Made by a program: the position numbers and the translations under genes
In this document: in pieces, positions 50,660-59,632 of the stretch
How positions within the stretch are numbered: position 1 is the first letter of the stretch
Layout of the letters: the number at the start of each line of letters is the position of its first letter
Source: Hymenobacter sp. YIM 151858-1
GTDB taxonomy: Bacteria > Bacteroidota > Bacteroidia > Cytophagales > Hymenobacteraceae
Direction of reading: 5' to 3'
Length of the DNA: 64,000 bases
NCBI RefSeq assembly: GCF_025979705.1
Contig: NZ_CP110136.1
Span: 4,154,001-4,218,000 of the forward strand
Notes under the pieces: generated by a model
The model's input: only the letters and a program-made list of their open reading frames with translations
Told to the model about the DNA's origin: nothing
The model's database searches: none

Positions 50660-52783
50660 ATGCCAGATAACACCCCTTCTCCGAAAAAGAAAAAGCCCAT
50701 GCTGCCTACGCCCGGTGCCCCGCGCCCCGGTGTGCAGCTGTGGGTGCTGCTCGGGCTGACGGTGCTCGTGTTCGGGTTTTACTACCTGAGCAAGGGCAGC
50801 TCGGCCATCGAGATTAAGCAGCAAGAGTTCGAGCAGATGCTGCAGGCCGGCGACGTACGCGACGTAACCCTCGTGAACGACCGCTTGGTGGAGGTGACGC
50901 TGAAGCGCGAAGCCCTGCAGAATGCCAAATACAACCAAAAACTGCGTACCCGCGGCCCGCTCGTATCGGACCAGGGGCCGCACTACAACTTCCGCGTAAT
51001 CGACGGAAAGACCTTTAAGGAAGACTACGACAAGCTGCAGGCCACCATCCCGGCCGAGCAGCGCGTGGGCCTGGGGGTTGATACCCGCACCGGCTTCGGT
51101 GAGATATTCACCAACTGGGCTTTCTTTATTATCCTATTGGTGGGCTTCTGGTTCCTGATGCGCCGCATGAGCGGTGCTGCCGGGCCCGGTGGCCAGATCT
51201 TCAGCATCGGCAAATCGCGCGCGGCCCTGTTCGAGGGTGGCGACAAGGTGAAAATCACCTTTAAAGACGTGGCCGGCCTGGAGGAAGCCAAAGAGGAAGT
51301 GCAGGAAATCGTGGAGTTCCTGAAGAACCCGTCGAAGTTCACCGTATTGGGTGGCAAAATCCCGAAAGGCGCTTTGCTGGTAGGCCCTCCCGGCACGGGC
51401 AAAACCCTGCTGGCCAAAGCCGTAGCCGGCGAGGCCGATGTGCCGTTCTTCTCGCTGTCGGGTTCCGACTTTGTGGAGATGTTCGTAGGCGTAGGTGCGG
51501 CCCGCGTGCGCGACTTGTTTAAGCAAGCCAAAGCCAAGGCGCCCTGCATCATCTTCATCGACGAAATTGACGCCATTGGCCGCAGCCGCTCGCGCGGCAA
51601 CGTGCCCGGCGGCAACGACGAACGCGAGAACACGCTGAACTCGCTGCTGGTAGAAATGGACGGCTTCGGCACCGATTCGGGGGTTATCATCCTGGCGGCT
51701 ACCAACCGCCCCGATACCCTCGACTCCGCGTTGCTGCGCCCCGGCCGTTTCGACCGCCAGATTTCGGTGGACAAGCCCGACATCATTGGCCGTACCCAGA
51801 TTTTCGGGGTGCACCTGAAGCCACTGGCTTTGTCGCCCGACGTAGACGCCAAAAAGCTGGCTGCCCAGACGCCCGGTTTTGCCGGCGCCGAAATTGCCAA
51901 CGTCTGCAACGAAGCCGCCCTTATTGCCGCCCGCCGCGACAAGAAGATGGTGACGATGCAGGACTTCCAGGATGCTATCGACCGCGTGATTGGTGGCCTC
52001 GAGAAGAAGAACAAGCTTATCTCGCCCGAGGAGAAGAAGATTGTGGCTTACCACGAAGCCGGCCACGCTATTGCGGGCTGGTTCCTGGAGCACGCCGATC
52101 CGTTGGTGAAGGTGAGCATTGTGCCGCGCGGTGTAGCCGCCCTAGGTTACGCGCAGTACCTGCCCAAGGAGCAGTTCCTGTACAACACCGAGCAGCTCAC
52201 CGACGAGATGTGCATGGCCCTAGGTGGTCGTGCCGCCGAGGAGCTGGTGTTCGGCAAGATTTCGACCGGTGCCTTGTCCGATCTGGAGCGCATCACCAAG
52301 ATGGCCTACAGCATCGTCACGATGTACGGCATGAACCCCAAGCTGGGCAACATCTCCTTCTACGACTCGAAGGGCTCGGGCGAGTACGGCTTCACCAAGC
52401 CTTATTCAGAAGCCACGGCCCAGATGATCGACGAAGAAGTGCGAAAGATCATCGAGGATGCTTACAACCGCACGAAGGACTTGCTCACCTTCCGTCGGCA
52501 GGAGCTGGAGATAGTTGCCCGCGAACTGCTCGAAAAGGAAATCCTGCTGCAGGACGACCTGGAGCGCCTCGTAGGCAAGCGCCCGTTTGATGCGCAAACC
52601 ACCTACCAGGCCCATACCGCCGGCACCGACCGCTCCGAAACCCTGAGCGAGCGTAAGCAGGAGCACCCGTTGCCCCTGAGCAACGACTTGCCCGAGCTAA
52701 ACCTGCCCGGCCACAGCAACGGCTCGTCCGATGGCCAATCGACCACGGAGCCTACGGTACCCACCGGCAGTACTGTTGCCTAG
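50660..52783 (+). CDS. ftsH: ATP-dependent zinc metalloprotease FtsH
   Basis: A 707-residue membrane protease that degrades misfolded membrane proteins and short-lived regulators. It has two membrane helices (about 26-43 and 151-167), an AAA+ domain with Walker A GPPGTGKT (242-249), Walker [12 protein letters not shown] and the SRH region [20 protein letters not shown]. The zinc site HEAGH lies at 465-469. The C-terminal 60 residues are low-complexity and not conserved. The ATG at 50660 gives [12 protein letters not shown]. Its stop codon is in a CCTAGG and a strong terminator follows. Confidence 0.97.
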
Positions 52784-52816
52784 GTGTAAGGCCCGGTTAG
52801 TAAGGCTGTTAGCAAT

Positions 52817-52859
52817 AAAAAAAGGAGCCGTTGCCCGTCTGGCAGCGGCTCCTTTTTTT
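52817..52859 (+). terminator. Rho-independent terminator of ftsH
   Basis: AAAGGAGCCGTTGCC and its near complement form the stem; a run of T follows. Confidence 0.88.
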
Positions 52860-52882
52860 CGGTTGTCTCTTCACTTTAAAGA

Positions 52883-52913
52883 AAAAAACCGCAGCCAAGG
52901 GCCGCGGTTTTTT
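52883..52913 (+). terminator. Second hairpin after ftsH
   Basis: AAAAAACCGC (52883-52892) pairs with GCGGTTTTTT (52904-52913). Probably a back-up terminator. Confidence 0.65.
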
Positions 52914-53173
52914 CAACACACCTATTGCAACAACCTATACAGAAGGACAGCCACTAAGTGGTTAATCCTCCGGAGTATGGTATCTGAGCTGGCACCGCGT
53001 TGCAAATCAGCGCCGAGCTTTTATATTGATGTTCGTCCGGCGGCTCCGGATCTTACTTTTTCTGGTTGCTGACGGCCGCCTGATAGGCGCCGTCGGTATT
53101 CGAATGGCTAGCTGAACCGTTGGTAGCGGGGTTTCGGCTGCCTTTCTGATACAATGTTAGGGCAAGCCAGGGG

Positions 53174-53206
53174 TTAAGTAAAGGAAGAAAACGCCTTCTG
53201 TGTGAC
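53174..53206. repeat. Repeated motif, copy 1 (near the ftsH-permease spacer)
   Basis: Plus-strand reading: TTAAGTAAAGGAAGAAAACG...TGTGAC. Three further copies sit at 57448-57481, 57565-57590 and 57648-57679. On the minus strand TTTAC (53182-53178) is exactly 18 bp from TAACATTG, just as at copy 2. Confidence 0.6.
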
Positions 53207-53329
53207 AAGGATTACTTGGTGCTTATTGTGCTCAATCCGAAGACGGGAAGGCCCGCGGAGCGGTGTTTAGGCCGGATTTAGAGCCACTTCGGCCTGCAAG
53301 AGTGCATGGTTTGGCCAATCGAAACGCGT

Positions 53330-53363
53330 AAAAAAGGGCCTGTCTGTGACAAAACAGGCCCTA
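53330..53363 (-). terminator. Terminator of the importer operon
   Basis: AGGGCCTGT (53335-53343) and ACAGGCCCT (53354-53362) form the stem, overlapping the stop codon of the last permease. Five or six T follow on the minus strand. Confidence 0.85.
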
Positions 53364-54344
53364 AAATTTTCGGCTTTTTTGCGCCGAATCGCGCATTTGC
53401 GGCCCTGCTAGCAGCACATGCAGCGCCATAACGGTGGCTGCCAGCGGCAGAGCGGCACCCGCAACCAGCCACCAGGCGGCCGGTTCGAGGCGGGCTGTTG
53501 CTAGGGTGCGGCCCCAATCGGAGCGGTCGGGCGGCAAGCCTACCCCCAGAAAGGCCAGCGTGGTTTGCAAGGCAATGCACGTGGCGAGGTTGAGCGGCAA
53601 AGCAGCCCGCAGGGTGCCCCAGGCGTTGGGTAGTACGTGGCGCAACAGTACCCGGCTTGCCGGAAACCCGGCTGCATAGGCCGCCTCGATGTAGCCCTGG
53701 TGCTTTAGCTGAACAACTTGGGTGCGAACCAGGCGGGCGGTGGCAGTCCAGCACGTAAGCGTTAGCAACCCGATTAGCCAGGGCGTAGACGGGGTATGCA
53801 CGGCCGCGAGCAGCAACACCAGCAGCAAACGCGGCAACGAGCCTAAAAACGTAGTGCTCAGCTGCACCAACTGATCGACGGGCAGGCCTGTGGTGCGCTG
53901 GGGCAGAAAGCTGGCCGCTGTGGCGACCAGCGCCGCGCCGGCTACCCACCAAGGCAACTGGCTGGCCGGCATCAGCAGGGCCACCAACAACCCTGCCCCC
54001 AAAGCACCTAGGGCAAGCCTAGGTACCCGAATGCCGGCGTTGCCCCAGGAGCCCGCAGCGGCGCCCAGCAGAATGCCCAGCAGCGACGTCAGAACCGCTG
54101 CGGGCAAGCTCAGGGTCAGTAACGAATGGGTGCCGGCCACGACATCCGTAAGCACGTCGCGGCCGAATGGGTCGGTGCCAAGCCAGTGCTGCGCCGATGG
54201 GGGCAGGTTTATTTGCAGCACATCCACCGGTACAATCAGCCACCGCTCGGGCCAGCACACGGTAAGCCCCGCGGCCACGCCTAGCATCAGCAGCCACGAC
54301 CCGGCCAGCCAGCGCCCCGCCCGAATTACCGATATCCTGCGCAT
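53361..54344 (-). CDS. Opp/Dpp-type ABC transporter permease (DppC/OppC-like)
   Basis: A 327-residue permease of the peptide/nickel uptake type. The N-terminal HWLGTDPFGRDVLTDVVAGTHSLLTLSL is the DppC/OppC signature, and LKHQGYIEAAYAAGFPASRVLLRHVLPNAW is the EAA loop that meets the ATPase. About six membrane helices. Its ATG shares one base with the TGA of the DppB-like gene (TGATG overlap), so it is coupled. The stop is part of the terminator hairpin. No ATPase gene lies in this operon or elsewhere in the window. Confidence 0.86.
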   Translation of the reverse strand: MRRISVIRAGRWLAGSWLLMLGVAAGLTVCWPERWLIVPVDVLQINLPPSAQHWLGTDPFGRDVLTDVVAGTHSLLTLSLPAAVLTSLLGILLGAAAGSWGNAGIRVPRLALGALGAGLLVALLMPASQLPWWVAGAALVATAASFLPQRTTGLPVDQLVQLSTTFLGSLPRLLLVLLLAAVHTPSTPWLIGLLTLTCWTATARLVRTQVVQLKHQGYIEAAYAAGFPASRVLLRHVLPNAWGTLRAALPLNLATCIALQTTLAFLGVGLPPDRSDWGRTLATARLEPAAWWLVAGAALPLAATVMALHVLLAGPQMRDSAQKSRKF

Positions 54345-55366
54345 CAGCTGGTACGGGTGCGAGGGTCAAGAAGCATCTGCATGGCATCGGCCAGTACCCA
54401 GGCCATCACGCGCGCCGCCGCTACCAGCAGCACACCGCCGATGAGCACGGGCAAATCGCGACTGGCGGCGGCCTCAGCCAACAGGCGGCCCATACCGGGC
54501 AAGGCAAATACCAGCTCTATCACTACCGCGCCGGCTACTACTTCGGGCAGCAACTCGGTAACCCGGCTCACGAACACCGGCAAAGCATTGGGCAACACAT
54601 GGCGCCACCACACCCGCGCCACCGGCGTGCCTTTGGCCAAGGCCGTGGTTACGTACGGCTGCTGGCATTGCTGGCGCAAGGCGGCCGCAGTTGGTAAAAA
54701 AACAGCCGGAAAGCCCGCCAGTACCAAGCTAAGCATGGGTAGCGCCAAGTGGTAGGCCCGATCGAGTACAAAACTGCCCAGCAACGGCTCGGCGCCGGAC
54801 TCTAGGCCATACGAAGGAAAAAGCGGCCAAAAATCGGGGCTGGCCAGCAATACTAGCAGCAGCAGCGCTACCACGAACAACGGCAGGCTATCGAATAGGT
54901 AAGCCACCGGCACCAGCAAGCGGTGCATGGGTGCCCGGCGCGCTGCGGCCACCGCAGCACCTAGGGCCAACAGCGCCGTGAGCAGCAGCGCGGTGCCCGT
55001 AAGCGGGAGCGTAACGGCCAACGCCGCACCCAGGTGTTCTTCTACCGCGGTACCATCGCGGTAGGAGGTGCCTAGGTGCCCACGGCTCAGGTGCCCGAGC
55101 CAGGTGTGATATTGGTTGTGCCCGCCATGCCAGCGCCAGGGCAGCAGGCTGCAATAAAAAAGCGGCTGCTGCAGGCCCAGGCGCTGGCGGTATTGCTGCT
55201 CCGTGGCTGCGCGTGTGGCCGCGCTGGCCGTGGGGGCAAGCTGCTCGGCCACAAACAGCTGCGGCGAGTTGGCCGCTACCGCGCGGCTCAGCAAAAATAC
55301 CACCGAGGCCACCAGCCACGCCGTGCCCAGGGCCATGCCAATGCGCTTTGCCAGCAGTTTGGCCAT
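54344..55366 (-). CDS. Opp/Dpp-type ABC transporter permease (DppB/OppB-like)
   Basis: A 340-residue permease. It starts MAKLLAKRIGMALGTAWLVASVVFLLSR and carries HLSRGHLGTSYRDGTAVEEHLGAALAVTLPLTGTALLLT as in DppB. The EAA loop is seen as QPYVTTALAKGTPVARVWWRHVLPNALPVFVSRV. It overlaps the next permease gene by one base and follows the binding-protein gene after 6 bp. Together with the binding protein it should bring in short peptides or similar ligands, with an ATPase supplied from elsewhere. Confidence 0.86.
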   Translation of the reverse strand: MAKLLAKRIGMALGTAWLVASVVFLLSRAVAANSPQLFVAEQLAPTASAATRAATEQQYRQRLGLQQPLFYCSLLPWRWHGGHNQYHTWLGHLSRGHLGTSYRDGTAVEEHLGAALAVTLPLTGTALLLTALLALGAAVAAARRAPMHRLLVPVAYLFDSLPLFVVALLLLVLLASPDFWPLFPSYGLESGAEPLLGSFVLDRAYHLALPMLSLVLAGFPAVFLPTAAALRQQCQQPYVTTALAKGTPVARVWWRHVLPNALPVFVSRVTELLPEVVAGAVVIELVFALPGMGRLLAEAAASRDLPVLIGGVLLVAAARVMAWVLADAMQMLLDPRTRTS

Positions 55367-55372
55367 GCTTAC

Positions 55373-57118
55373 CTAGGGGCGGCTGCCGGGGGTAAGGGTA
55401 AAAGCCGGCAAGTCGTAGCCGGGCTCCAGGCCGCTGGGGCGCACGTTGCCGAAGCGCCGGGCCACAGCCAGCCGGTTGGGCTCGAAAAACAACGGCACCA
55501 TGGGCATTTGCTGGTACAGCACCGTTTGCAGCTTGTGCAGCAGCTGCACTTTCCGGGCCGAGTCTTCGGTGTTCACGATGCCATCGAGCAGGCGGTCGGA
55601 GGCGGCGTTGCCGAAGCGCGTGCGGTTTACCCCGCCTTCGCCAATGCTGCCCGTGTGCAGCAACGGGCGCAAGTCGTACGAAAACGGGTTGCCGTACAAG
55701 GTGCGCAGGCACAAATCAAAGTTGCCTTCGCGGCGCAGCGCCGAAAGCTGCCCGGCTTCGGTGGGGTGCAGGCTGATGGGCAGGCCAATCTGGCGGGCTG
55801 CCTGCTGCAGCAGCAAGCCAATGGTTTCGTAGGTACGGTCGCCGGCGGCGTAAAACAAGCGCGGCGCCAGCGCCTGCGCGTTGTTGCCGGCGCGCCGCCA
55901 GCCGTTGCTGCCACGTTGCCAACCCGCTTGCTGCAACAAGGCCACCGCCTGCTGCGGCGAGTAAGGCCGCAGCGGAAGGCTGTCGTGGTACACCCACTGC
56001 TCGCGTGGGCTGATCAGGCTGGTGCTGCGCTGGCCCAGCCCGAACTGCGTGGCCTGCATCAGGCGCTGCGCATCAACCAGCAGGGCCAGGGCCTGGCGCG
56101 TACGCGATTCGCTTAAGCTGGGCTGTTGGGTGTTGATTTCCATAACCACCACCCGGTAAGAGGCTGGCGAGTACAGCTGAAATCCTGCCGAGTCGGTTTT
56201 GCGCAGCTGCTCAAAGTCGGGGCCCGGCATGTTCGGGTACACATCCAGCTCGCCGCGGCGCATGGCCAGCAGGGCGGTAGCGGCGTTGGGCACCACATGA
56301 AACTCGAGGCGGCGCGGATTGGCCACCAGCGGCGAGGCTGCGTTTTTAAGGGCATCGCCCCACCACTTGCTTTTGCGCTCCAACACTACGCGCTGGCCGG
56401 CTTGCCAGCTCACCAGCTGGTAGGCACCGCTGCCGCGCACCACGCGCGGGTCGCGCCACTGCTCGCCCCGCCCGAATCGCTGCTGAAACGCTTGCACCGC
56501 CGCTACTTGGTTCAGGGTCGAGTCGCCGCTGAGCAGCCGGCGCACGGGCAGCGCCCGCAGCAGGGAGTCGGGGTCGAGCAAATACTCGGGCAACACCGGA
56601 AAGTCGCCGCTGGTGGTGCGGTATTCGGGCGCGTAGCCGCGGCACACCAGCGTAAAGCGGCGCGGGTTCTGGGCGTCGAGCTGCACATCCTGCACAAAGC
56701 CGAGCGTGTTGCGCAGGCTTTCGTTGGGCAAGCCCGGGCAGGCAATAACCTTCAGGCTAAACACCACATCCGAAGCCAACACTGGGCGGCCGTTGTCCCA
56801 GGTGGCTTCGGGGTGTAGTTGGTAGCTGATGTAGGTCAGGGAGTCGGTACGCCGAACGGACGGCATATCGGTGGCCAGCCAAGGCACAAACCGGCGCTTG
56901 GCGCCATCCACCGTCAACAAGCTTTGGTAAAGCAGGTTGTTGAGCTGAATGGCATAGGCATTGGGCAGGGTTACCGGGTTCAGCGACTCAGGGTCGCGGG
57001 GCCAGCATACCCGTACCGCCGTGGGTACAGCGGCTTGCTTGGAGGGCGACGAGGAACAAGCGCAGCAAACGCAAAGGCTGAGGGCAACAAGCAGCCTAGG
57101 TAGTGAGATTTGTAACAT
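55373..57118 (-). CDS. Opp/Dpp-type substrate-binding lipoprotein (SBP_bac_5)
   Basis: A 581-residue lipoprotein of the family-5 peptide-binding proteins. The lipobox-like CCAC follows a short signal (LLVALSLCVCCAC). Typical features are PESLNPVTLPNAYAIQLNNLLYQSLLTVD, ATWDNGRPVLASDVVFSLKVI and GSGAYQLVSWQAGQRVVLERKSKWWGDAL. RFTLVCRGYAPEYRT is somewhat divergent. The ATG at 57118 gives the signal peptide. It is 65 bp downstream of the small 67-codon gene on the same strand, so both probably share a transcript. The ligand is unknown. Confidence 0.86.
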   Translation of the reverse strand: MLQISLPRLLVALSLCVCCACSSSPSKQAAVPTAVRVCWPRDPESLNPVTLPNAYAIQLNNLLYQSLLTVDGAKRRFVPWLATDMPSVRRTDSLTYISYQLHPEATWDNGRPVLASDVVFSLKVIACPGLPNESLRNTLGFVQDVQLDAQNPRRFTLVCRGYAPEYRTTSGDFPVLPEYLLDPDSLLRALPVRRLLSGDSTLNQVAAVQAFQQRFGRGEQWRDPRVVRGSGAYQLVSWQAGQRVVLERKSKWWGDALKNAASPLVANPRRLEFHVVPNAATALLAMRRGELDVYPNMPGPDFEQLRKTDSAGFQLYSPASYRVVVMEINTQQPSLSESRTRQALALLVDAQRLMQATQFGLGQRSTSLISPREQWVYHDSLPLRPYSPQQAVALLQQAGWQRGSNGWRRAGNNAQALAPRLFYAAGDRTYETIGLLLQQAARQIGLPISLHPTEAGQLSALRREGNFDLCLRTLYGNPFSYDLRPLLHTGSIGEGGVNRTRFGNAASDRLLDGIVNTEDSARKVQLLHKLQTVLYQQMPMVPLFFEPNRLAVARRFGNVRPSGLEPGYDLPAFTLTPGSRP

Positions 57119-57183
57119 GAACCTGGCGCGTCCGGGGTGGTAGGACCGGCCCAAGTTACCGAATGCCGCGCTGAAGAAGCCAA

Positions 57184-57387
57184 TTAGTGCGTTTCGCCCC
57201 AGCCGTTGCCACCAATGTTGGGGGTGTTGGTGGGCGGGGGCGGCGGGGTGGTAGTAGTGCCAGAAGTTTGTGCCGCCTGAGATTGGGCCGCACCGGTGGC
57301 GCTATTCGTAGTAGCGCTTTGAGTAGTGGTACCAGCACCCAGCAAGGTGCTTAGCTTCAGTAAAGCGATGAGTAGCAGCTCCAACAT
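57184..57387 (-). CDS. Small pre-peptide-like protein (hypothetical), first gene of importer operon
   Basis: A 67-residue protein. Its N-terminus is a hydrophobic helix (MLELLLIALLKLSTLLGAG), followed by a Thr/Ser/Ala/Gln stretch, a proline run and the C-terminus NIGGNGWGETH. That layout (export signal, low-complexity spacer, short distinctive tail) is like a pro-peptide from which a C-terminal signal peptide is cut. Codon use resembles neighbouring genes. A promoter box TATGTTTG lies 40 bp upstream with a motif copy 18 bp beyond it. The protein matches no known family. Its role as a signalling peptide is hypothetical. Confidence 0.6.
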   Translation of the reverse strand: MLELLLIALLKLSTLLGAGTTTQSATTNSATGAAQSQAAQTSGTTTTPPPPPTNTPNIGGNGWGETH

Positions 57388-57426
57388 TGTGGTGAGATTT
57401 GGGGTGGACTAGAACCTAGAACACAA

Positions 57427-57434
57427 CAAACATA
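57427..57434 (-). promoter_or_regulatory. Promoter box of the small gene/importer operon
   Basis: On the minus strand TATGTTTG is an exact TAnnTTTG. The sequence TTTAC of motif copy 2 lies 18 bp upstream. The leader to the ATG at 57387 would be around 33 nt. Confidence 0.55.
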
Positions 57435-57447
57435 CCAGCAAGGCCGG

Positions 57448-57481
57448 CCTAAGTAAAGGAAGAAACCCATGTGTATGTGAC
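57448..57481. repeat. Repeated motif, copy 2
   Basis: Plus-strand reading: CCTAAGTAAAGGAAGAAA...TGTGAC; the best match to copy 1. It lies directly upstream of the small gene's promoter box. Confidence 0.65.
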
Positions 57482-57564
57482 TGGATATAAGAAAGGTAAA
57501 TTGTAAAATTAGCTAGCCGAGCACGTTGTAAAATCCTGTTTGATTCAATAGTGCAGACCTCATA

Positions 57565-57590
57565 CCTGAAAAATAGGAGGCATTTGTGAC
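57565..57590. repeat. Repeated motif, copy 4 (degenerate)
   Basis: CCTGAAAAATAGGAGG...TGTGAC, shorter and less similar than the others. Considered tentative. Confidence 0.4.
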
Positions 57591-57647
57591 ATAGTGCTGC
57601 CCAAAATTCTCATCTTGCACAATACAAAAGTGAGGTGGTTGCCCCGT

Positions 57648-57679
57648 CCTAAAAAGGAAGAAAGTGCGTTGTCTGTGAC
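57648..57679. repeat. Repeated motif, copy 3
   Basis: CCTAAAAAGGAAGAAAG...TGTGAC, in the same orientation as copies 1 and 2, about 65 bp before the start of the 507-residue protein gene. Confidence 0.6.
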
Positions 57680-57743
57680 GCGGGACATATTGCGCCCAAC
57701 GACCGCCGAAGTTGGCTGACGCGCGTTATTCGAAGGATTTCCG

Positions 57744-59267
57744 ATGCACGAGCTGATAAATTTGGCCAAGATTGTGACAAACCGGCGGCTGCCTACGCTG
57801 CCGTTGGTTGACTTTGCCGATAGCTACAATTCGAAATCGAGAGAAGAGCAGTTGCTGGAGTTGCTGGTATCGGGCGAGAGCCTTACCAACATGCAGGTAG
57901 CCAAGCGCATTTACAACAGCAGCTCCGCCAGCAGCCAGGCGGCGCTGCGCAAGCTCAAGCAGCGCCTGCAGGAGAAACTGCTCAACCACTTGTTCTTTCT
58001 GGATCATACCGATCCGCGGCACCCGGCGTTTCGCCGGTACGAGCAACAGTGCCTCGACTTGCTGTACCAGGCAACCATGCTGTGGCGCGAAAGCGAGCGG
58101 GTGTTGCTGCCGCAGGTGCTGCGCAAGGTGGTGCGCCTGGCGGCCAGCGGCGAGTTTACGCAGCAGGAAATCAGCGCCTGGGAAATGCTGCGCACGCTGT
58201 ATGCCGAGTCGAACGACTACACCCAATACCAGCACAGCGTAAAGCAGCTCGCCACCCTCTACGAAACCCTGAGCGTGGAGCGCGAAGCCCAACGGCTCAA
58301 CTGGGATGCCAAAATGAAATTGGTGCGCTCGGTATCGGCCCGGCGCCGGCTGCTGCAGGAGCTGCCCGACATCATCGGCAAGCTGGAGCGCATGTACCAG
58401 CAGGTGCCCACTTACAACGTGTACGACCCGCTGCTGAAAATGCGCCTGATGCAGCAGGAGCTGAGCGGCAACTTCGAGGAGATAATCAGCATCACCACGG
58501 CTGCCGAACAGCTGTTTGCCGAGGGCAAGCTGAACCCCAAGCGTTTCGATAGCCGCTTTACCAAGTTTTACAGCATGTACGCGCACTTACGGGCGCGGCG
58601 CATCACGGAGGGGCTGGCGCTGGCCGAGGGCTACCTGGAGGCTTTTCACCGCTCCAACAACAACTGGTTTGCTTTTCTGGAGCTGTATTACCTGCTGGCC
58701 ATGCACGACGGCGACTACGTGCGGGCCGGCGAGCTGCTCCGCCGCATGCAGCAAAACCCCTTTATGACGAAAATACCGCTGCCGGCGCAGCAGCGGTGGG
58801 AGCTGATGCAGGCCTACTTGTTTTTTGTGCGCCCCGAGGAAGCCCGCCTGCGCCCCCTGCACTTTGCGCAGCTGGTGCAGCGCATCCCCGACCACAGCCG
58901 CGACAAGCAGGGCTACAACGTGGCCATTCTGATACTGCAGTTTTTGCACTACCTGCGCGAGGGCAACCAGGAGGCCCTGCTGGCCCGCCTCGAAAGCCTG
59001 CGCAAATACGAAAAAGCGCACCTGCGCGAAGCTACCACGCTCCGGAGCCGGCTGATGTTCCGGTTGCTGCAGCTCACGGTTAAAGAAAACTTCGACCCCG
59101 AAGCCAGCGAGAAAAAAGGCCAGGCGCTGCTGACGCGTTTGCGCGAGACGCCGCCGCCCGGCGAGGCATTTGCCGAAATCGAGATTATACCCTACGAAAA
59201 CCTGTGGGCGCAAACCCTGGGTTTGCTCCGCGAGCTGCACGCGCAGCAGGAAAAGCTGAACACCTAG
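57744..59267 (+). CDS. 507-residue helical-repeat (TPR-like) protein with HTH-like N-terminus; candidate regulator
   Basis: No known family was recognised. Residues about 30-75 (LLELLVSGESLTNMQVAKRI, then NSSSASSQAALRKLKQRL) look like a helix-turn-helix. The rest is almost all helix with TPR-like pairs (LELYYLLAMHDGDYVRAGEL, LILQFLHYLREGNQEALLARL). No signal peptide or membrane segment, so it should be cytoplasmic. Length and layout (HTH plus TPR-like) parallel RRNPP receptors. The ATG at 57744 starts it. It is divergent from the small gene and importer operon. Its TAG stop lies in a CCTAGG shared with the stop of the convergent gene. A regulatory role is inference. Confidence 0.72.
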   Translation: MHELINLAKIVTNRRLPTLPLVDFADSYNSKSREEQLLELLVSGESLTNMQVAKRIYNSSSASSQAALRKLKQRLQEKLLNHLFFLDHTDPRHPAFRRYEQQCLDLLYQATMLWRESERVLLPQVLRKVVRLAASGEFTQQEISAWEMLRTLYAESNDYTQYQHSVKQLATLYETLSVEREAQRLNWDAKMKLVRSVSARRRLLQELPDIIGKLERMYQQVPTYNVYDPLLKMRLMQQELSGNFEEIISITTAAEQLFAEGKLNPKRFDSRFTKFYSMYAHLRARRITEGLALAEGYLEAFHRSNNNWFAFLELYYLLAMHDGDYVRAGELLRRMQQNPFMTKIPLPAQQRWELMQAYLFFVRPEEARLRPLHFAQLVQRIPDHSRDKQGYNVAILILQFLHYLREGNQEALLARLESLRKYEKAHLREATTLRSRLMFRLLQLTVKENFDPEASEKKGQALLTRLRETPPPGEAFAEIEIIPYENLWAQTLGLLRELHAQQEKLNT

Positions 59268-59632
59268 GGCCGCTGGGCCGCCACGGCCTGGGCGGGCACG
59301 GCGGCCGCGTTGGCCACCAATTGCTCGTAGCGCTGAAGCTGAGCAGGCGTCAGAACGGTTTTCAGCTGCGCGTGGTAGTCGTCGGCCACGGCTTGCAGCT
59401 TGGTTTTGCGCACGTCCTGGTCGCCGGCGTACATGCGCTCCACTTCCTGCTCTTGCTGCAGGCGCTGGTAAGTAAGGCTTTTAACTTTCAGAATACGGGC
59501 GTCGTCGAGGCCCAGCTGCGGCGTGAGGGCGCGGGTGGCTTCGGCGGCTTTTTGGCTGAGCGTACCGCCGCCCTGGGCAAATGCACCCGTGAAGCAGCAG
59601 GCAAGAACAGCGGTTACGAATAGCTTTTTCAT
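59264..59632 (-). CDS. Secreted LTxxQ-motif (Spy/CpxP-like) protein
   Basis: A 122-residue protein with a signal peptide (LFVTAVLACCFTGAFAQ) and a helical mature part. The sequence LTPAQLQRYEQLV matches the LTxxQ pattern of Spy/CpxP periplasmic chaperones, and LQQEQEVERMY fits the long helix. The match is weak, so Spy-like activity is a guess. Its stop overlaps the stop of the convergent gene by 4 bp. Confidence 0.65.
   Translation of the reverse strand: MKKLFVTAVLACCFTGAFAQGGGTLSQKAAEATRALTPQLGLDDARILKVKSLTYQRLQQEQEVERMYAGDQDVRKTKLQAVADDYHAQLKTVLTPAQLQRYEQLVANAAAVPAQAVAAQRP

Follow-up and report, generated by a model that had tools for sequence, protein, structure and literature searches.

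A conserved pro-peptide, putative receptor and importer module with a predicted linked RNA in Hymenobacteraceae: a candidate peptide-signaling circuit of Bacteroidota

Results

Layout and conservation of the locus

We analyzed 64,000 nucleotides of the Hymenobacter sp. YIM 151858-1 genome (GCF_025979705.1, contig NZ_CP110136.1, positions 4,154,001 to 4,218,000 of the forward strand; hereafter the window), in which a short gene, a putative intracellular receptor, an importer and a predicted RNA form a candidate peptide-signaling module. On the minus strand a 67-codon gene (57184..57387) is followed by a family-5 solute-binding lipoprotein of the Opp/Dpp/Nik type (55373..57118; Pfam SBP_bac_5, 2.4e-53) and by two Opp/Dpp-type permeases assigned by Pfam and synteny, permease A (54344..55366; BPD_transp_1, 2.5e-25) and permease B (53361..54344; BPD_transp_1, 1.9e-15). 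The successive junctions are a gap of 65 bp, a gap of 6 bp and a one-base overlap, and a 507-codon gene (57744..59267, plus strand) is divergent to the whole. These frames and spacings had been given in a preliminary description of the sequence and proved accurate, and its naming of the lipoprotein and the two permeases is borne out by the three Pfam matches. The lipoprotein starts at the ATG at 57118, the mechanically called open reading frame (ORF) beginning earlier, at a TTG. The operon closes with an intrinsic terminator (53330..53363, minus strand), read from the sequence as GGGCCTGT...ACAGGCCC and then a run of T.

This order of 507-residue protein, divergent small gene, binding lipoprotein and two permeases is kept across Hymenobacteraceae. 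Most of 40 relative loci with long flanks have the same order and orientation, at least 36 of them with the binding protein, and such a recurrence is far beyond chance; the exceptions to the importer order (L042, L065, L072 and L074) are second copies or belong to other families. Within the genus of the window, FtsH and RsfS stand on either side of the module. A scan of species genomes returned 472 receptor-encoding stretches, of which 80, from Hymenobacter, Adhaeribacter and Solirubrum, were retained as the named set.

The pro-peptide gene

The 67-residue product is without a Pfam match. It consists of a hydrophobic leader, MLELLLIALLKLSTLL, a low-complexity spacer and a C-terminal unit, GGNGWGETH, which is the predicted mature-peptide region (57187..57213, minus strand). 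The small gene could be extracted from 46 loci and from most of the named set, and several of its apparent absences are explained by paralogues, contig ends or non-ATG starts. The leader follows the consensus M-[LFIV]-E-L-[LI]-x-x-A-L-[LF]-Q-[LFIV], the spacer is not conserved, and the tail resembles either GGxGWGxx or GGTGxWDxxN. Relatives thus do conserve the 67-codon frame, whose loss the preliminary description had named as a reason to give up its interpretation, with variation in the spacer and constraint on the tail, and homologues of the 507-residue protein do keep a small neighbor with a hydrophobic N-terminus in these 46 loci. Three species in the clade of the window share the tail GGNGWGETH unchanged, with synonymous differences only.

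The evidence for selection comes from the many Hymenobacter species in which the unit is tandemly repeated, in 2 to about 18 copies. We compared the copies within each gene over the eight codons around the Trp, counting codon-pair differences. A first set of genes gave 884 synonymous against 64 nonsynonymous differences, and the named set, which shares species with the first and is not independent of it, gave 1746 against 100; in the latter, 40 of 43 multi-unit genes had no nonsynonymous difference at all, and all 100 fell in the remaining three. Because copies within a gene differ almost only synonymously, the unit must be translated and selection acts on the peptide itself. In its conserved leader, variable spacer and constrained tail the small gene behaves as a pro-peptide gene. 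Nonsynonymous differences climb abruptly beyond offsets -5 to about +3 relative to the Trp, and these edges therefore delimit a peptide of 8-10 residues. Within the unit, Gly and Trp are invariant. Copies are identical within a genome and differ between species, with 50 distinct core peptides among 71 genomes.

Two loci are notable. Adhaeribacter soli (L055) carries two adjacent pro-peptide genes, at -376 and -636 from the receptor start, with near-identical leaders and the same tail, GGTGSWDDNN; here the entire gene, and not the unit within it, was duplicated. Hymenobacter sp. H14-R3 (L057 / L234) encodes a 249-residue pro-peptide of 17 units, and its nonsynonymous differences are due to one degenerate unit, ANGNSWGN.

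The putative receptor

The 507-residue protein is single-copy in its genome and has a homologue in every Hymenobacteraceae genome searched, with 93% identity to that of Solirubrum puertoriconensis, as well as in other families of the order. It gave no sequence match in Pfam, NCBIfam or PDB. An AlphaFold2 model built on 42 aligned sequences is all-helical and confident (predicted local distance difference test score, pLDDT, 89; predicted template modeling score 0.84), and consists of an N-terminal tri-helical domain resembling a helix-turn-helix (HTH; approximately residues 33-85) and a superhelix of the tetratricopeptide repeat (TPR) type. The preliminary description had held that an enzyme, or a structure lacking a helical-repeat groove, would speak against a receptor; the predicted structure is a superhelix. 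A structural aligner placed peptide-bound Rap proteins at the top (Z 17.5-16.8 over 273-305 residues), followed among peptide receptors by NprR (15.8) and AimR (15.0). The model thus supports a putative receptor with a groove-forming superhelix, which does not imply common descent with Rap. Foldseek searches against PDB and viral models returned generic TPR proteins only, none at E<=0.001.

The HTH-like segment claimed near the N-terminus is moderately supported. The first 85 or so residues resemble a known DNA-binding class only weakly: modeled as a separate domain, the tri-helical N-terminus reaches a pLDDT of 72.6, and several response-regulator DNA-binding domains of the OmpR type match it at Z 4.2-5.8.

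The protein family extends beyond the signaling module, since a subfamily of more distant receptors (L104, L108, L115 and L116), encoded in other families of the order, is without the small gene; in three of these loci a conserved 145-residue protein adjoins the receptor instead. One genus of Hymenobacteraceae (L070, L071 and L073) has two tandem receptor paralogues, which are about 35% and 30% identical to the protein of the window, together with one small gene and one importer. A second receptor copy of 58% identity (L042, on G004 contig 8) is adjoined by a binding protein alone, with neither pro-peptide nor operator, and is possibly an eavesdropping or decaying copy. In the window itself a convergent gene 3' of the receptor (59264-59632, minus strand) encodes a 122-residue secreted protein of no family, which some members of the genus and some Hymenobacter retain and which is probably a mere neighbor.

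Operator and promoters

A 32-bp repeat, read on the minus strand as GTCACA-N13-CTTCCTTT, occurs three times at the locus, and each copy precedes a candidate promoter on that strand. The P1 operator (57450..57481) lies upstream of the pro-peptide gene, the P2 operator (57648..57679) adjoins the receptor gene, and the P3 operator (53175..53206) lies past the permease terminator. Promoters of Bacteroidetes carry a -7 box with the consensus TAnnTTTG, and corresponding boxes are present at P1 (TATGTTTG, 57427..57434, at the 29-bp operator distance also seen in relatives), P2 (CACTTTTG, 57625..57632) and P3 (TAACATTG, 53152..53159), at the same spacing to the operator.

This arrangement is specific to the locus and strictly oriented. 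Across loci 133 of 134 operator sites were at P1, P2 or P3 positions and none was on the opposite strand, and the CAA of the -7 box stood 29 or 30 bp from the operator at every one of 133 promoter sites, against a background of 9%. In eight genomes of the genus, 17 of 18 exact operator matches fell at this locus. Exact matches away from it, at C1:2824792 (the fourth in the window genome) and in G001 contig 21, are probably due to chance. Since the operator lies just upstream of the -7 box, at the position of a -33 element, we infer that its placement suggests an activator-like site. Between P1 and P2 there is a further conserved half-site, GTCACA (57585..57590, minus strand), whose distance in relatives is 89-92 bp to the P2 half-site and 109-111 or 119-122 bp to that of P1; these spacing classes are steps of one helical turn.

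The predicted P3 RNA

From the conserved promoter and terminator, P3 is predicted to give an RNA of about 265 nt (52880..53145, minus strand). Neither the operator/promoter element, with its third copy at 53175-53206, nor the RNA gene there formed part of the preliminary description. The RNA ends with an unpaired TGTTGCAATAGGTGTGT element, invariant over about 16 nt, and then an intrinsic terminator (52882..52913, minus strand) whose stem carries compensatory changes and covaries, as judged from 36 distinct sequences. In the window the single-stranded element reads GGTTGTTGCAATAGGTGTGT (52916..52935, minus strand), with its core invariant in the same 36 sequences, and is the candidate seed. 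Its 16-mer has exactly one copy, at this locus only, in seven of the eight genus genomes. The element is present at 39 of 49 P3 loci. At the 6 loci of another Hymenobacter clade (L051-L054, L057 and L058) a different element is conserved, and the P3 transcript ends with TTTTAGAAGCGGAAGGCTTATAGC ahead of the terminator.

In many relatives the P3 transcript also contains an ORF of 59-73 codons (TxDGxLV...ALRxGxAxLIGGLLVG) of no known family, the regex-based calls among the 49 P3 loci being a lower bound. It is absent from the window, its two nearest relatives and two others inspected, in all of which the RNA 3' end is still present. The simplest reading of these sequences is a trans-acting RNA. 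Rfam gave nothing above the gathering score over 52700-58000, near-complements of the seed in the eight genomes pointed to no conserved gene start as a target, and predicted duplexes with the leaders of the locus itself were no better than those of shuffled sequences.

Association of peptide, receptor and importer

Distances between core peptides were associated with receptor distances when permease or binding-protein distances were controlled (partial Mantel 0.33-0.44, p 0.001; the value with the binding protein controlled is 0.33), and not with binding-protein distances when the receptor was controlled (partial Mantel -0.015, p 0.63). Peptide divergence thus appears to follow the receptor better than the importer. 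The result should be taken as support and not as proof, because partial Mantel tests guard poorly against phylogeny.

Loci in other families of the order are in line with this pairing. At L065, L105, L106, L109, L112, L119 and L122 a small gene, transcribed divergently from that of the receptor, begins with a hydrophobic stretch and in most cases ends in a W/D/G-rich tail, and no binding protein or permease adjoins it. L119 has a permease pair alone, downstream of its receptor, and L113 has both binding protein and permeases.

As for the energy supply of the importer, the window genome holds only two family-5 (SBP_5) binding-protein genes and one diverged permease-A paralogue (31%), and both of its oligo_HPY matches, the tail of OppD/F proteins, lie in a single fused 691-codon frame. 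This orphan OppDF-type ATPase probably powers the importer of the module. Its gene (L153 6308-8134; G000:C1 approximately 3422807-3424633) has an lspA-like gene on one side and an RNase R-like gene on the other, and no permease gene adjoins it.

Discussion

We propose that the locus as a whole is an autoregulated peptide-signaling circuit, with a working like that of the RRNPP systems and an RNA output like that of agr/RNAIII, and we regard this as probable. The wider claim, that this is a peptide quorum-sensing system of Bacteroidota, evolved separately from RRNPPA, in which an undescribed HTH-TPR receptor family reads tandem species-specific Gly/Trp peptides and a locus-specific small RNA executes the response, is one that we favor slightly. 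Peptide signaling is the preferred explanation because it accounts for all parts together, namely the pro-peptide, the importer, the receptor, the feedback operator and the RNA output. The preliminary description had suggested a possible peptide-signaling module from the gene arrangement, and at each of the three points where it could have failed (structure of the 507-residue protein, its small neighbor, conservation of the short frame) the results agree with it.

What the sequences show is the conserved module, selection on the peptide, a helical-repeat model of the receptor, an operator/promoter element specific to the locus and a conserved 3' end of the RNA; the steps from export and cleavage through import, peptide binding and operator binding to activation or repression and RNA function are inferred. 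According to our hypothesis the leader would take the pro-peptide to or across the inner membrane, and proteolysis would release a peptide of 8-10 residues of the Gly/Trp/Asp type, GGNGWGETH in the window. As the peptide builds up outside, the family-5 lipoprotein would capture it and the two permeases would re-import it, and in the cytoplasm it would dock in the groove of the TPR receptor. The peptide-bound receptor would then alter the occupancy of the GTCACA-N13-CTTCCTTT operator, by which it may activate or repress transcription. Control of P1 would provide feedback on the pro-peptide/importer operon, P2 would be a second leftward promoter under the receptor, beside the receptor gene, and from P3 the RNA, through its conserved seed, would relay the signal to targets. 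Within this circuit direct binding of the receptor to DNA is less certain than the sensing of the peptide.

Several observations weigh against this proposal and call for caution. Lys and Arg are absent from the first 18 leader residues in 42 of 46 genes, unlike in a normal Sec signal, which makes export uncertain. The module contains no dedicated exporter or protease, and the passage of a peptide of about 900 Da across the outer membrane is a further difficulty. The nearest solved structures to the binding protein are NikA and only then peptide binders. On the side of the receptor, unrelated TPR/PCI proteins come near the Rap scores (Rpn6, Z 16.1; LGN, 14.9), and fold class alone is for this reason no proof of kinship; the 42-sequence profile found no RRNPP chain at E<=1, RRNPPA members being themselves very divergent. 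Column-level mutual information between receptor and peptide was also tried and discarded as uninformative, since it did not single out a groove. Finally, two Adhaeribacter receptors are without part of the HTH-like region while GTAAC-type sites are still present, which makes direct DNA binding by the receptor uncertain.

The last point bears on an explanation that concerns only the final step, in which the operator is read by a different DNA-binding protein or by an alternative sigma factor and the 507-residue protein acts through that protein, as Rap does, and not on DNA. The weakly supported HTH-like domain would fit, as would the lack of a DNA-binding domain in Rap proteins, which are the best structural matches. 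Nevertheless, the operator is confined to this locus, whose own candidate regulator is the 507-residue protein, and we consider an intermediary rather unlikely. A different view of the peptide would leave it uncleaved: the small protein would stay in the inner membrane, and its tail, on one side of it, would be sensed directly, either acting as an anti-regulator in the cytoplasm or being read by the periplasmic lipoprotein, so that the module would sense membrane or transport status. A leader so strongly conserved without basic residues, and a module without protease or exporter, speak for this view. Up to about 18 units with variable linkers, on the other hand, fit cleavage into free peptides and hardly one tethered tail, so that we hold a tethered sensor to be unlikely.

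The small protein could also be a secreted effector, bacteriocin-like or some other exported peptide, with a module for production, uptake and immunity and a TPR protein that is an ordinary regulator and binds no peptide. Tandem identical units that diverge fast between species would suit an antagonistic peptide, yet the module has no modification or dedicated export gene, its most widely kept partner is the receptor and not the importer, peptide divergence tracks the receptor, and a near-universal single core locus in one family is unlike bacteriocins; this makes an effector very unlikely in our judgment. The structural proximity of the binding protein to NikA, and the D, E or H in many tails, would agree with a metallophore-like chelator whose metal complex is imported by the binding protein and permeases, with a regulator sensing the metal or the complex. 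But many units have neither His nor Cys (e.g. GGSGGWGGD), invariance is confined to Gly and Trp, and the module has neither an outer-membrane receptor nor a biosynthetic gene, and we regard metal uptake as highly improbable. A methanobactin-like metallophore was rejected for its absent biosynthetic genes, and a toxin-antitoxin pair was considered for the module and rejected as well.

Peptide signaling of this kind would have its closest parallel in the RRNPPA systems of Bacillota and their phages (Rap/Phr, NprR/NprX, PlcR/PapR and AimR/AimP). The module shares with them an adjacent pro-peptide gene, a predicted cytoplasmic TPR-type receptor with a predicted superhelical groove, for which Rap, NprR and AimR are the closest folds among these receptors, and an Opp-type importer. 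It differs in its occurrence in Cytophagales (Bacteroidota), in the lack of a sequence match to any RRNPP structure, in a leader without basic residues, in an importer that is part of the pro-peptide operon, in its up to about 18 units of a Gly/Trp/Asp peptide, and in the linked RNA output. We do not count it among the RRNPPA systems, since kinship at the sequence level went undetected and the steps of export, import and binding are proposed from the parts. To our knowledge, family-wide tandem duplication of a pheromone with up to about 18 units was not known before. Tandemly duplicated pheromone pro-peptides as such have been reported among RRNPPA, in phage Phr (PMC11343458).

With the agr system of staphylococci (AgrBDCA and RNAIII) the module shares the logic of an autoregulated peptide operon coupled to a regulatory RNA, here a predicted one, and the likeness extends to the small ORF that the RNA holds in some species. 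In contrast, its peptide units are linear and there is no homology; among the module ORFs and their Pfam matches we found neither AgrB/AgrD nor the membrane histidine kinase and response regulator of an AgrC/AgrA two-component pair. HTH-TPR regulators of the MalT and SARP types likewise join a DNA-binding-like domain to a TPR-like repeat, and MalT domain III was among the Foldseek matches, whereas the receptor here has no family match and is linked to a peptide-like partner gene.

Reviewed knowledge of quorum sensing comes chiefly from Pseudomonadota, Actinomycetota and Bacillota, and a survey of RRNPP systems was limited to complete Firmicutes genomes (PMC10075063). We found no description of a peptide-pheromone system in Bacteroidota in the open-access full-text literature searched, and to that extent the claim of novelty for Bacteroidetes made in the preliminary description holds.

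In conclusion, if the proposed circuit is true, a whole family of environmental bacteria would have a private peptide code of which the receptor, importer, operator and RNA output can be identified. Cell-cell communication in Bacteroidota would become directly testable with a synthetic peptide of nine residues, and the parts would constitute a candidate orthogonal signaling set.

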